Assembly: GCF_015169395.1 (NCBI RefSeq)
Contig: NZ_CP063458.1
Coordinates: forward strand, 2,232,001 to 2,296,000
Direction: 5' to 3'
DNA length: 64,000 bases
DNA from: Humisphaera borealis
GTDB taxonomy: Bacteria; Planctomycetota; Phycisphaerae; Tepidisphaerales; Tepidisphaeraceae
Part shown: positions 43,927-50,501 of the stretch, piece after piece
Layout of the letters: the number at the start of each line of letters is the position of its first letter
Position numbering within the stretch: the stretch's first letter is position 1
Position numbers and translations under genes: made by a program
The notes under the pieces: generated by a model
Databases searched by the model: none
What the model was told of the DNA's origin: nothing
Seen by the model: the letters and a program-made list of their open reading frames with translations, nothing else

Positions 43927-44012
43927 GTAGGGTCCGCCTTGGCGGACGCGCCGCGTTCCCCGGGATGTGGTGTGCGGTTTCACGAATGCCCGTCCGCCAA
44001 GGCGGACCCTAC
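43927..44012. repeat. Paired inverted repeat, GTAGGGTCCGCC family
   Basis: A perfect 22-bp inverted repeat: GTAGGGTCCGCCTTGGCGGA+CG at 43927-43948 and its complement at 43991-44012, with a 42-nt spacer. Each arm contains its own palindrome TCCGCC/GGCGGA. The right half supplies the last ten codons and stop of the ROK kinase gene on the minus strand. A third, single copy lies at 50424-50445. Confidence 0.9.
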
Positions 44013-45171: not shown

Positions 45172-48100
45172 ATGTCACGCTGGATTGTCGCATTCGGTTG
45201 TCTTCTTCCCTTGCTGGGTTCCTCCGCGTCCGCGGCCGAGCTTCGCGCCGGCGCGGCCGCCATCGACATTTCGCCGAAGCAGTACCCGGTCCTCATCAAC
45301 GGCGGGATGACGTCGCGCAGCGCGACCAAGCTTTCTGACCCGATCCATGCCCGCGCCATCGTCTTCGACGACGGCAAGACCAAGCTCGCGGTCTGCGTGG
45401 TCGATAACTGCCTGTTCCCCCGCAAGCACATCGACCCCGCCAAGGCCGAGGCGAGCAAGCTGACGGGCATTCCGGCGGAAAACATGCTGGTGTCGGCCAC
45501 GCATACGCACAGCGCGCCGTCCGTCATGGGCGCGCTCGGCACTGAGGAAGACCCCAACTATCCGCCGGTCATGCGGGAAGGTATCGCGCGGGCGATCGCG
45601 GAGGCGTACAAGAACCTGGAGCCGGCAAAGGTGGCGTGGGGCGTCGCCGATGCCAACGAATACGTCGCGATGCGTCGCTGGATAAGGCGGTCGGATCGCA
45701 AGATGAAGAGTCCATTCGGCGATCAGGACGTACTGGCCAACATGCACCCCGGCCACCTGAGCGTCGATGCCGTCGGTCCCAGCGGGCCGGAAGACCCGGC
45801 GCTCACCGTGCTGTCGGTGCAGGCCGCCGACGGCCGACCGATTGCGCTCATGGGCAACATCGGCATGCACTACTTCAGCGGGCCGGCACCGGTGTCGGCC
45901 GACTACTTCGGCATCTTCTGCGGCCTGATCGAAAAGGAACTGGGCGCGGCCATCCCAGCCGGCAAACCGAAGTTCGTCGGTCTTCTGTCCCAGGGCACCA
46001 GCGGCGACTGCTGGCGACGGGACTACACCAAGCCCAAGCCCGAGAAGGAAATCACGATCGACGAGTATGCCGGCGGCCTGGCGAAGCTCGCGCTCGCCGC
46101 CGTTGCCAATAAGCAGCACCAGAGCGTCGATCTCGCGATGGCCGCCGCCGACATCCGCATCAAGGCCCGGGCACCGTCCCCGGAGCGCATCGAGTGGGCC
46201 AAGAAGATGATCGCCGAGATGGGCGACCGCCTGCCCAAGACGCAGCCCGAGGTCTACGCCAAGGAAGTCCCGCACTTGGTGAACGTCCCCGAGGCCGACA
46301 TGCTGCTGCAGGCAATCCGCATCGGCGACTTTGGCCTGACGGCGATGCCGAACGAGGTCTACGCCCTGACCGGTCTGAAGATCAAAGCCCAGAGCCCGCT
46401 CGCCGGTACGATGAACGTCGAGCTCGCCAACGACGAACTCGGCTACATCCCCCCGCCCGAGCAACACCCGATGGGCGGGTACACCACCTGGCCCGCGCGC
46501 AGCAGTTACCCCGCGGTGGATACCGAACCGAAGATGGTCGAAACCGTGCTCACGCTGCTGGAGAAAGTCGCCGGTAAGCCGCGCATCCCGATGGACCAGA
46601 CCCCAGGCCACGCCGTCGTCGGCGATTACGGCAAAGCCGTGCTAGCCTCCAAGCCGATTGCGTATTGGCGGATGAACGAGATGTCGCCGGTCCCGGCGAA
46701 AGACCAGGTCTCCGGGCAGTTGGCGAAGTACGAACCGTTCATCGCGTTCTGGCTCGAAGGCCCGCAGTCGGATGCCTTCAGCGGCAAGGGCGTCGTCAAC
46801 CGCAGCCCACACTTTGCCGGCGGGCGGATGGTCATCGATACCGGCAAGAAACTGACCGGCGATTACAGCGTCGAGTTCTGGCTCTGGAACGGCTTCCCCG
46901 CCGAGGGACGCGCGGTGGCCGGTTACGTGCTCTCCCGCGGCACCGACGGTGACAAGACCGCCGGCGAAAGTCTTGGCATCGGCGGCACCGACGCCACGCT
47001 CAACGCCGCCGGCAAGCTGTTCATCTACAACGGCGACGGCGCGAAGAAGACCCTCGTCGGCCGTACACCGCTGTCATTCAAGGCGTGGAACCATGTGGTG
47101 TTCGTGCGCGCTGGCGCGCGGGTTCACGTTTACCTCAACGGCAACGCCGACCCGGAGATCAGCGGCGAGCTCGAATCGACCGTGAACGGTGCCGGCACAA
47201 TTTTCCTCGGCGGGCGAAACGACAGCTTCACGAACCTCGAAGGCAAGCTCGACGAAGCCGCGATCTACGACCGCGCCCTCACCGGCACCGAAGCCGCCGC
47301 CCATTTCCGAGCGGCCGCCGTCCTTGAAACGGCTGTCCGTGACACGGGTTTCCAACCCGTGCAAGGTGCGCCCGAACGTCAGGGAACCGTCAATCCTCAG
47401 CGACCCGACTCTTCGAAGTCAGGTGCTGCAGAACCCACATCTGCTGAACGGTCGGACGCACCCAGCACGGGTTGGAAACCCGTGTCACGGACAGCCGTGT
47501 CAGAAACAGCTGCCGCAGCAACGCAGCCTGCGGCGATCTCCGGCATGCGGCTGTCCAAGCCCCTGTCGCCCGAAGAGAGCGCCAAGCTCCATGTCGTCAA
47601 AGCCGGTTACGAGCTCGAACTTGTCGCCGCCGAGCCGATGGTCATGGACCCGGTCGCGTTCACCTGGGGGTCCGACGGCCGAATGTGGGTTGCCGAGATG
47701 TCCGACTACCCCTACGGCAGCGACGGCAAGATGAAAGCCTGCGGACGCGTACGCTACCTGCAGGACACCGACGGCGACGGCAAGTTCGACAAGTCCGTTG
47801 TCTTCGCCGACGGCCTGAACTTCCCCACCGGCCTGCTGCCGTGGCGCGATGGCGTACTCGTCACCGCCGCACCGGATATGCTGCTGCTGCGCGATACCAA
47901 CAACGACGGCATCGCCGACGTGAAAGAGGTCCTCTACACCGGCTTCACCGAGGGCAACCCGCAGCTCCGCGTCAACTCGCCGCAGTTCGGCCTGGACAAC
48001 TGGGTGTACCTGGCCAACGGCGTCAGCAGCAAAGGCGAAGTGACGTCGCTCAAAACCGGCGCGAAGGTGCAGGTCTCCGGCCGCGACATCCGCATCCGCC

Positions 48101-50427
48101 CCGACACCGGCGAAATCGAAACCGAAACCGGCACCAGCCAGTTCGGCCGCAAGATGGCCGACAACGGCGAATGGTTCGGCGTTCACAACAGCTATCCCGG
48201 CCGGCACTTTGTCATCCCCGAGCGCTACAGCAAGCGCAACCCGCACGCCTCGCTGCCGCAGAATTACTACGACCTCGGCTTCTCGGCCAACCCCAAGGTC
48301 TACCCGCTCAGCCAGGGGCAGAAGCGCTACGGCACGGCGTTCTTCGCGCAATCCGGACGCTTCACCAGCGCCTGCGGCATGACGCCCTACCGCGATACGC
48401 TGCTCACCGGCGCCGGCACGTCCGGCGGCACGGGCGAACCTCAGAAAGACGGCGTCATCCACCTGTTCACCTGCGAGCCCGTCCACAATCTCATCCAGCA
48501 CAACGTCCTCAAACCCGCCGGCAGCACGTACGTCGCCGAGCGTTCGCCCGATGAACTCGACGGCGAATTCCTGGCGTCGAAGGACGAATGGTTCCGCCCC
48601 GTCTATCTCACCACCGGCCCCGACGGCGCGCTCTACATCGCCGACATGTACCGCTTCATGATCGAGCACCCCGATTGGCTGCCGGCCGAGGGGAAGGAAG
48701 ACTACCGGCCCTACTACCGGCTCGGCGAAGACCTGGGGCGCATCTGGCGGGTGAAGCCGAAGGGCTCGACCCTGCCGCCGATCCCCAACCTGGCCAGGCT
48801 CTCCACGCCCGAACTCGTGAAGGCGCTCGAATCGTCCAACGGCTGGCAGCGCGATCTGGCGCAGGCCATGCTCGTATGGGAAAAGAGCGGCAATGCCGTC
48901 CTGCTGCTGCAGGATTTGGCGCTGCTCGGCAAATCGCCGTACGCACGCCTGCATGCGATGTGGGCGCTGGAGGGGACCAACAACCTGACGACGCGCGTCG
49001 CCGAGAAGGCGATGACGGATGAGCACCCCGCCGTCCGCCGGGCGGCGGTGCGGTTTGCCGAGAACCGCGCCGATGCGTCGCCGACGTACATGAACGCGCT
49101 CCGCAACGCGATCACCGACCCCGATGCCGGCGTGCGCTTGCAACTGGCGTACTCGCTCGGGCAGATCAACATGCCCGCCGCCGGCGAGACGCTCGCAAAG
49201 CTCGCGCTTTCCGCCGGCGACGATGTCTACCTCACGGCGGCGGTGATGACCTCGGCCCACGTCCACACCGACGCACTAGCCACCGCGATGCTCGGGCAGG
49301 CGGCCCCGCCGACGGCGCTGATGCGCGACCTCCAGGCGATGGCGCTGGCCAAGGGCGACCGCGACCTGCTCGCCAAGCTGCTGCTGCCGATTCTTGGCAC
49401 CAAGGGCGGCCGCTACACCATGCCGCAGCTCGTCGCGTTTCGCGAATTTCTTGACGTCCTCGGCCAGCAGAAGACGTCGGTCGCCAAGCTCGGCGGTAAA
49501 GGCGACGCGCTCAGCGATCTGCTGACGGCCGCCCCCGATGCCTTCGCCGCCGGCCGGGTTGTTGCAGGCGCGATGGAGCTGCCGGTCGAAAAACGGCTGA
49601 TCGGGATCAGCCTGCTCGGCCGCGACGGGGCTCATCTGACCGACGACCTCAAGCAGCTCTCAGCGATTTACGCCCCCGCCGCCCCGGCGGCCATCCAGTT
49701 GGCCGCCGTCCGCGCGTTGTCCACGGCCAGTGCGGCGGAAGTGCCCGGCGTTTTGCTGTCGCGCTGGGCCGATCGCCCGGCAGAGGTTCGGTCGGCGGCG
49801 GTTGATGTCCTGCTCACCCGGGAACCCTGGACGCTCACTTTGCTGGAGCGTCTCAAGAGCGGCGAAGTGCCGGCGACCGACTTCGACGCCACCCGAAAGC
49901 AGCGCCTCGCCCGCAGCAAGTCGGCGAAGATCAAGGATCTGGCGTCGGCAGTGTTCGGCGATCTGGGCGTGAACCGCTCGAAGGTCGTCGAAACCTACCG
50001 CCCCGCCGCCACGCTCGCCGGCGATGCCGCCCGCGGGCAGAAGATCTACCAGGCCAACTGCGCGACGTGCCATAAGGTGGGCAGCGAAGGCGTCGAGATC
50101 GGACCGAACCTGGCGTCCATCGCCGGCTGGCCGCCGGAGGCGCTGCTGACGGCGATCCTCGACCCCAGCCGATCGGCCGAGCCGCGCTACCTGGCCTACA
50201 CAGCCACGCTCGACACGGGCGAAGCCGTCTACGGCATCCTGCTCCGCGAAACGCCGGCGGGCGTGACGATCAAAGGCCTCGACGGCAAGGAACGCGACAT
50301 TCCGCGCAAGCAGATAAAATCGCTGGAATGCGCCAACCGCTCCCTCATGCCCGATGGCATCGAATCAGCGGTAGACGCGCAACAGATGGCGGATCTCATG
50401 CAGTTTCTACACTCGCAAAAACCGTAG
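45172..50427 (+). CDS. Giant secreted protein: ceramidase-like + LamG + PVC-type dehydrogenase + HEAT + cytochrome c
   Basis: A 1,751-residue protein with a signal peptide (WIVAFGCLLPLLGSSASA). Approximate domains: neutral/alkaline ceramidase-like (20-465; ATHTHSAP with His111/His113); LamG/concanavalin-like (495-715; AYWRMNE, EFWLWNGF, DEAAIYDRALTG); a 60-residue linker encoded by an inverted repeat pair (720-775); PVC membrane-bound dehydrogenase beta-propeller (800-1195; GYELELVAAEPMVMDPVAF, DGRMWVAEM); HEAT-like repeats (1205-1600); and a C-terminal cytochrome c domain with NCATCHK (Cys1630, Cys1633, His1634). PVC dehydrogenase plus HEAT plus haem is a standard planctomycete combination; the ceramidase-like front end is less usual. 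The TAG stop lies inside a GTAGGG repeat. The start at 45172 is chosen for the signal peptide. Confidence 0.9.
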   Translation: MSRWIVAFGCLLPLLGSSASAAELRAGAAAIDISPKQYPVLINGGMTSRSATKLSDPIHARAIVFDDGKTKLAVCVVDNCLFPRKHIDPAKAEASKLTGIPAENMLVSATHTHSAPSVMGALGTEEDPNYPPVMREGIARAIAEAYKNLEPAKVAWGVADANEYVAMRRWIRRSDRKMKSPFGDQDVLANMHPGHLSVDAVGPSGPEDPALTVLSVQAADGRPIALMGNIGMHYFSGPAPVSADYFGIFCGLIEKELGAAIPAGKPKFVGLLSQGTSGDCWRRDYTKPKPEKEITIDEYAGGLAKLALAAVANKQHQSVDLAMAAADIRIKARAPSPERIEWAKKMIAEMGDRLPKTQPEVYAKEVPHLVNVPEADMLLQAIRIGDFGLTAMPNEVYALTGLKIKAQSPLAGTMNVELANDELGYIPPPEQHPMGGYTTWPARSSYPAVDTEPKMVETVLTLLEKVAGKPRIPMDQTPGHAVVGDYGKAVLASKPIAYWRMNEMSPVPAKDQVSGQLAKYEPFIAFWLEGPQSDAFSGKGVVNRSPHFAGGRMVIDTGKKLTGDYSVEFWLWNGFPAEGRAVAGYVLSRGTDGDKTAGESLGIGGTDATLNAAGKLFIYNGDGAKKTLVGRTPLSFKAWNHVVFVRAGARVHVYLNGNADPEISGELESTVNGAGTIFLGGRNDSFTNLEGKLDEAAIYDRALTGTEAAAHFRAAAVLETAVRDTGFQPVQGAPERQGTVNPQRPDSSKSGAAEPTSAERSDAPSTGWKPVSRTAVSETAAAATQPAAISGMRLSKPLSPEESAKLHVVKAGYELELVAAEPMVMDPVAFTWGSDGRMWVAEMSDYPYGSDGKMKACGRVRYLQDTDGDGKFDKSVVFADGLNFPTGLLPWRDGVLVTAAPDMLLLRDTNNDGIADVKEVLYTGFTEGNPQLRVNSPQFGLDNWVYLANGVSSKGEVTSLKTGAKVQVSGRDIRIRPDTGEIETETGTSQFGRKMADNGEWFGVHNSYPGRHFVIPERYSKRNPHASLPQNYYDLGFSANPKVYPLSQGQKRYGTAFFAQSGRFTSACGMTPYRDTLLTGAGTSGGTGEPQKDGVIHLFTCEPVHNLIQHNVLKPAGSTYVAERSPDELDGEFLASKDEWFRPVYLTTGPDGALYIADMYRFMIEHPDWLPAEGKEDYRPYYRLGEDLGRIWRVKPKGSTLPPIPNLARLSTPELVKALESSNGWQRDLAQAMLVWEKSGNAVLLLQDLALLGKSPYARLHAMWALEGTNNLTTRVAEKAMTDEHPAVRRAAVRFAENRADASPTYMNALRNAITDPDAGVRLQLAYSLGQINMPAAGETLAKLALSAGDDVYLTAAVMTSAHVHTDALATAMLGQAAPPTALMRDLQAMALAKGDRDLLAKLLLPILGTKGGRYTMPQLVAFREFLDVLGQQKTSVAKLGGKGDALSDLLTAAPDAFAAGRVVAGAMELPVEKRLIGISLLGRDGAHLTDDLKQLSAIYAPAAPAAIQLAAVRALSTASAAEVPGVLLSRWADRPAEVRSAAVDVLLTREPWTLTLLERLKSGEVPATDFDATRKQRLARSKSAKIKDLASAVFGDLGVNRSKVVETYRPAATLAGDAARGQKIYQANCATCHKVGSEGVEIGPNLASIAGWPPEALLTAILDPSRSAEPRYLAYTATLDTGEAVYGILLRETPAGVTIKGLDGKERDIPRKQIKSLECANRSLMPDGIESAVDAQQMADLMQFLHSQKP
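47331..47496. repeat. In-frame paired inverted repeat inside the giant protein gene
   Basis: Arms 47331-47370 and 47457-47496 are 40-nt inverted copies with only two mismatches (38/40). Both contain the palindrome CACGGGTT-TCC/GGA-AACCCGTG. The 86-nt spacer is also in frame. Together they encode the linker reading DTGFQPVQ on one side and STGWKPVS on the other. The same palindrome occurs alone at 50469-50501. Confidence 0.92.
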
Positions 50428-50445
50428 GGTCCGCCTTGGCGGACG
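50424..50445 (+). repeat. GTAGGGTCCGCC element at the stop codon of the giant gene
   Basis: A 22-nt copy identical to the left arm at 43927-43948. Its TAG (50425-50427) is the stop codon of the 1,751-residue protein gene. No inverted partner copy lies close by. Confidence 0.85.
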
Positions 50446-50468
50446 CGATAGCGCCGCGACATGAGCTT

Positions 50469-50501
50469 TCCGTGACACGGGTTTCCAACCCGTGTCACGG
50501 A
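50469..50501. repeat. Perfect palindrome TCCGTGACACGGGTT family
   Basis: TCCGTGACACGGGTT, loop TCC, then the exact complement: a 15-bp stem with a 3-nt loop, 24 nt after the previous repeat. It matches the core of the arms at 47331-47496. It could act as a rho-independent-like hairpin but has no T tract. Confidence 0.85.

Follow-up and report, generated by a model that had tools for sequence, protein, structure and literature searches.

A REPIN read in frame in a fusion protein of Humisphaera borealis and its likely mobiliser within a helicase gene

The window considered here is a stretch of 64,000 nucleotides from the closed 7.19 Mb genome of the planctomycete Humisphaera borealis. It carries a long gene whose predicted product runs from a signal peptide and a ceramidase-like N-terminal part through a LamG domain, a REPIN linker, DUF7133 and HEAT repeats to a cytochrome c (Table 1). 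A sequence-only reading of the window had pointed to a 40-nt inverted repeat pair translated in frame inside this 1,751-residue protein. That pair is present. Its arms at 47331-47370 and 47457-47496 are identical at 38 of 40 positions and lie in the same frame, which reads ...VRDTGFQPVQ...PSTGWKPVSR... as the named linker peptides require. A weaker match extends the arms to 69 nt at 86%. A chance palindrome can be set aside, with about 1e-12 expected in the window. The unit itself has to be redrawn, however. Each arm is a hairpin in its own right (CACGGGTT-TCC-AACCCGTG), and what was described as a pair of arms is a doublet of two palindromes covering about 165 nt. The spacer carries the inner AATCCTC motif of the family, which is found inside 51 of 58 A/C copies versus 2.4% of random 60-mers, so the whole stretch of about 165 nt should be taken as the element. 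The lone palindrome also picked out by the earlier reading does belong to the same REP family and is intergenic. It looks like a REPIN minus its spacer. The search for an empty site at nucleotide level turned up none for the window copy, and scans for promoters and terminators yielded nothing useful.

Table 1. Coordinates of the features discussed (window positions unless a genome position is given)
Feature	Position	Strand	Remarks
Host gene	45172..50427	+	ATG at 45172; frame unbroken; 1,751 aa
Laminin_G_3 domain	46855..47292	+	Pfam; directly upstream of the element
REPIN (complete inverted REP doublet, feet and spacer)	47331..47496	.	read in frame; ~55 extra residues
Left REP TGACACGGGTTTCCAACCCGTG	47340..47361	+	foot GGCTGTCCG at 47331-47339; read DTGFQPV
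Spacer of the REPIN	47362..47465	.	has the family's inner AATCCTC motif
Right REP, inverted copy	47466..47487	-	foot at 47488-47496; read STGWKPVS
Example predicted tryptic peptide DTGFQPVQGAPER			spans the window linker
DUF7133 domain	47566..48762	+	Pfam; downstream of the element
Lone double-footed REP palindrome TCCGTGACACGGGTTTCCAACCCGTGTCACGGA	50469..50501	.	intergenic; same family as the window REPIN
DinG/YoaA helicase, 925 aa	G000:C1:3415222-3417999 (stretch L045 9223-12000)		complete Y1 transposase in frame
REPs flanking the Y1 domain in DinG	3415944 and 3416620 (genome)	+ and -	facing each other

The predicted RNA hairpin of the window element is very stable (-137.5 kcal/mol, z -11.9). 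One can imagine that the element is kept for this hairpin, either for mRNA stability or for pausing translation between the domains, the latter being an idea already known. However, the inverted doublet alone accounts for this stability, and homologues do not keep the element here. We consider a regulatory role improbable.

The distribution of the family was examined by fetching the listed REP copies with their flanks (1.05 Mb of the genome) and calling genes with a trained coding model. This DNA holds 177 REPs within 3 mismatches. There are 31 exact copies of the core CACGGGTTNNNAACCCGTG, and the related subfamilies GGGTTTCCAACCC, GGGCTTCCAGCCC and GGCTTTCCAAGCC are dispersed over the whole genome. 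Close REP pairs are mostly convergent (64 of 75), with pair lengths of 96-204 nt. Dispersed convergent doublets are the anatomy of a REPIN. Only 14 of the 177 REPs were called inside genes, and one of those is a 3-mismatch chance match, though coding sequence makes up 78% of what was fetched. Exact A/B copies number 114 in this genome, 63 in another genome of the genus (G001), 9 in G020 and 1 each in two others, and there are none in 96 further relatives. The REP type appears nearly confined to the genus.

The window copy had been said to look like a protein-coding palindromic element. It does stand in frame in a gene, but its family is mostly intergenic and is not tuned for coding. Intergenic doublets have 1.17 open frames out of six, fewer than the 1.88 of Markov shuffles, and adaptation of the element for coding was rejected. 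We would rather say that the REPIN is tolerated in linkers, not specialised for them. Another reading is that the linker is ordinary coding sequence, in which selection acts on the peptides and the DNA repeat is a by-product. The frame is open throughout and the host gene has a strong coding signal, as this reading expects. But the same DNA is found between genes at more than a hundred places, the palindrome is read in different frames in the two arms and in the other host genes, and homologues are without the peptides. Linker peptides kept without the DNA repeat had been named beforehand as the sign of ordinary coding sequence, and none of the homologues examined has them. This reading is extremely improbable.

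Pairs inside long genes are rare in the 1.05 Mb. There are only six, and all of them are open in frame. Their hosts are the window protein, LeuRS, CarB, DnaE2, an MMPL-type transporter and DinG/YoaA. LeuRS and the helicase were named via Pfam and NCBIfam, while the names of CarB, DnaE2 and the transporter come from our own reading of the sequence. The insert in LeuRS covers roughly residues 441-481. It is missing in all 17 LeuRS of relatives that were aligned, a few of which carry other extra residues at the same site. The CarB linker of the same-genus genome G001 contains a different REP-like doublet (GMGVPPM...HGRDAHAT), which marks linkers of this kind as hot spots or as places of turnover. 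In G002 a REP-like pair lies in the DinG loop, and in others the loop has repeats together with a transposase. Depending on the host, the second REP is read as STGWKPVS or as HGLETRVTD. These differing frames argue that no peptide is being conserved. The inserted palindrome proposed for the window is thus one instance of an element found genome-wide and in frame in other genes. It must be noted that DnaE2 (stretch L130 3109-7122) has, besides its REPIN, the in-frame repeats HGGTEARRHEG, RHEGTEARR and SCLRAS, apparently from another palindromic family.

The window element belongs to an already known kind, since translated REP dimers have been reported before (PMC3733652), their hosts being DnaE2, tRNA synthetases, helicases and other genes. 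Linkers and loops have been named as tolerated sites (PMC6006769). An insert that keeps the frame would be translated as a flexible linker because each REP is without a stop codon in most frames on either strand, and selection would let it survive where the added residues are harmless. Alternatively, the host could be a pseudogene in decay or an artefact of assembly, its long frame being accidental. At 63% GC, long open frames often arise by accident, and translation of this frame is something we infer. Against this, the genome is closed, the coding score of the host gene is high (443 log units) and the downstream domains are intact. The same phenomenon is also seen in LeuRS, and no second LeuRS gene was found in the genome. 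We regard a pseudogene or artefact as very improbable.

As far as sequence goes, the window linker is absent or different in homologues. Unfused ceramidase-LamG homologues in G005 and G075 end right after LamG. G001 has an unfused DUF7133 gene that begins with its own signal peptide and adjoins the same divergent ROK gene. Another inverted repeat lies upstream of this stand-alone gene, giving TTKARRTRR...LRAFVVRP on both strands. The homologue in G011 is fused, with an unrelated linker, and other ceramidase-DUF7133 fusions exist (G020). The G011 linker contains NPSLTPPTQPRVGEGRGEG, which resembles the translation of a further repeat family. In the window there is no start codon with a signal peptide 3' of the element, so the cytochrome half would seem to need read-through if it is to be exported.

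We argue that the joint reading of these results is very probable. As a non-autonomous mobile element in which a short spacer separates two facing REP hairpins, the REPIN would have entered in frame at the junction of the ceramidase-LamG part and the DUF7133-cytochrome part, where it would be translated as a tolerated linker, and its likely mobiliser would be a Y1 transposase borne by DinG. One can also imagine the opposite order of events. The REPIN first sat in the intergenic space between a ceramidase-LamG gene and a DUF7133 gene, and a later read-through fusion turned it into a linker. Both halves are separate genes in the relatives named above, the REPIN lies exactly at their junction and most members of its family are intergenic. 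However, the fused protein with another linker in G011 and the fusions in G020 mean that fusion does not need this REPIN, and relatives have each of LeuRS, CarB, DinG and DnaE2 as one unit. We consider fusion by read-through possible but doubtful. The earlier suggestion of insertion into a tolerant flexible linker is supported; for the window copy, an intergenic position before the fusion would also fit.

There are 11 Y1_Tnp matches in the genome. Only the one inside the DinG/YoaA gene has REPs of the family on both sides, and the other ten are without them. This makes it the likely mobiliser of the window REP family. The REPs around the transposase belong to subfamily B and those of the window to subfamily A, and as mobiliser this one enzyme would have to move both. 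The inner flank CCCGTGCAAGGTGC is common to the DinG transposase REP and the left REP of the window. The HUH motif and the tyrosine are kept, with H120, H122 and Y180 invariant in 28 sequences. The domain passes the Pfam cut-off for Y1_Tnp, and its score against the NCBIfam model REP_Tyr_transpos (NF047646) is 69.3 bits, under the curated cut-off of 80. For this reason we call it RAYT-like and not a RAYT. A structural model of a near relative (pLDDT 90) has as its best PDB match 4er8, which is TnpA_REP bound to a REP hairpin (E 5.6e-7), and this points to a TnpA_REP fold for the DinG-borne domain. TnpA_REP is its closest solved relative by sequence as well as by fold. The two share the HUH motif, the single tyrosine of the TnpA_Y1 superfamily and flanking REPs (PMC6006769; 4er8). 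In contrast to TnpA_REP and the RAYTs (PMC6006769), the DinG-borne domain scores too low for the NCBIfam cut-off, is longer in its N-terminal part and finds its nearest relatives among in-frame passengers instead of stand-alone genes. We infer that it is an active enzyme that would move REPINs by single-strand transposition.

The passengers were surveyed in 298 genomes of the class, mostly metagenome assemblies. The 24 best relatives of the DinG-borne domain all lie within frames of 471-1381 aa. Host sequence is found on both sides in 21 of them, and the remaining three are cut by contig ends. In ValRS the Y1 domain occupies one site in 13 genomes and a second site in a single genome, and DinG hosts one at a single site in seven genomes, that of H. 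borealis among them. ETF-beta, a Type ISP enzyme and a DUF1156 methylase are further hosts among these best relatives. Named genomes, from Verrucomicrobiota, Planctomycetota and others, add MetH, IspG/GcpE, XseA, Sua5, a FabA-like gene, a class I tRNA synthetase, a radical SAM protein and HsdR. Other relatives of the DinG-borne transposase are stand-alone genes. Though most of the genomes are metagenome assemblies, the sites recur from one independent genome to another. A tree of 45 domains groups them by host gene (16 changes versus 28 when shuffled). A single origin is not rejected for the DinG copies (AU p 0.124) and is weakly rejected for the copies at ValRS site 1 (AU p 0.023). The tree does not separate homing from transposition, or inheritance from repeated insertion.

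The obvious comparison is with inteins that carry homing endonucleases. In both cases a DNA-acting enzyme sits in frame in conserved enzymes, often at the same site across species. Unlike an intein, the transposase is flanked by REPs and presumably remains in the finished protein. No splicing (Hint) Pfam domain was found in the hosts scanned. We put at about even the chance that there is a Y1 (RAYT-like) lineage with the life of an intein minus the splicing, an in-frame internal domain of conserved housekeeping enzymes that seeds REPINs like that of the window. The transposase would be expressed from the host gene, with the REP ends serving as linkers, and any stop or frameshift in it would ruin the host enzyme too, which would protect it against loss. 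Whether a transposase of this sort profits from its seat in an essential gene can now be put to a direct test. The open-access literature, which leaves out most subscription journals, yielded no description of in-frame transposase passengers of housekeeping genes, a weak indication that they are new. Another gene's reading frame is a possible hiding place for the transposase of a REP family, one where annotation could miss it. More generally, the results suggest that parasitic DNA can persist within working genes by translation into harmless extra protein. The REPINs would be a clear case of mobile DNA sparing its host in this way, even in such demanding genes as LeuRS and CarB.

REPINs and RAYTs are already known (PMC3116915, PMC6006769), and it is worth considering where this family falls among them. 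Like the REPINs of Pseudomonas fluorescens SBW25 (PMC3116915), it consists of inverted doublets with a spacer that form hairpins, are dispersed and mostly extragenic, and are associated with a RAYT-type gene; the singlets look like remnants in both. Unlike them, it has the foot [CT]GTC[CA]G and not GTAG, its transposase lies in frame in a helicase gene, and some of its copies are inside essential genes and predicted to be translated. The intragenic GTAG and CGTC REPs, including RPE-4/6 of Rickettsia (PMC3733652), are also REP dimers that add 20-30 or more in-frame residues, but the sequence family here differs. RPE-4/6 have been treated as REPs in that work. The likeness to Rickettsia palindromic elements drawn by the sequence-only reading is fair as far as the way of working is concerned. 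Membership of the GTAG-tagged superfamily was rejected on the foot, which is neither GTAG nor GTGG. The CGTC-tagged superfamily was rejected too. Its stems open with A-T pairs at the first two positions (PMC3733652), whereas the stem here (CACGGG...CCCGTG) has C-G as its first pair. GTC is shared with the CGTC/TGTC foot and [CT]GTC is common, but it lies several bases from the start of the stem. CGTC REPs are also without a known transposase (PMC3733652), whereas here one lies between REPs of the family. A canonical GTAG foot is found in another REP family of the window (GTAGGGTCCGCCTTGGCGGACGC), which has an inverted pair at 43927-43949 and 43991-44012 and a single copy at 50424-50446. Its sequence GTAGGGTCCGCC occurs 31 times in the 1.05 Mb fetched.
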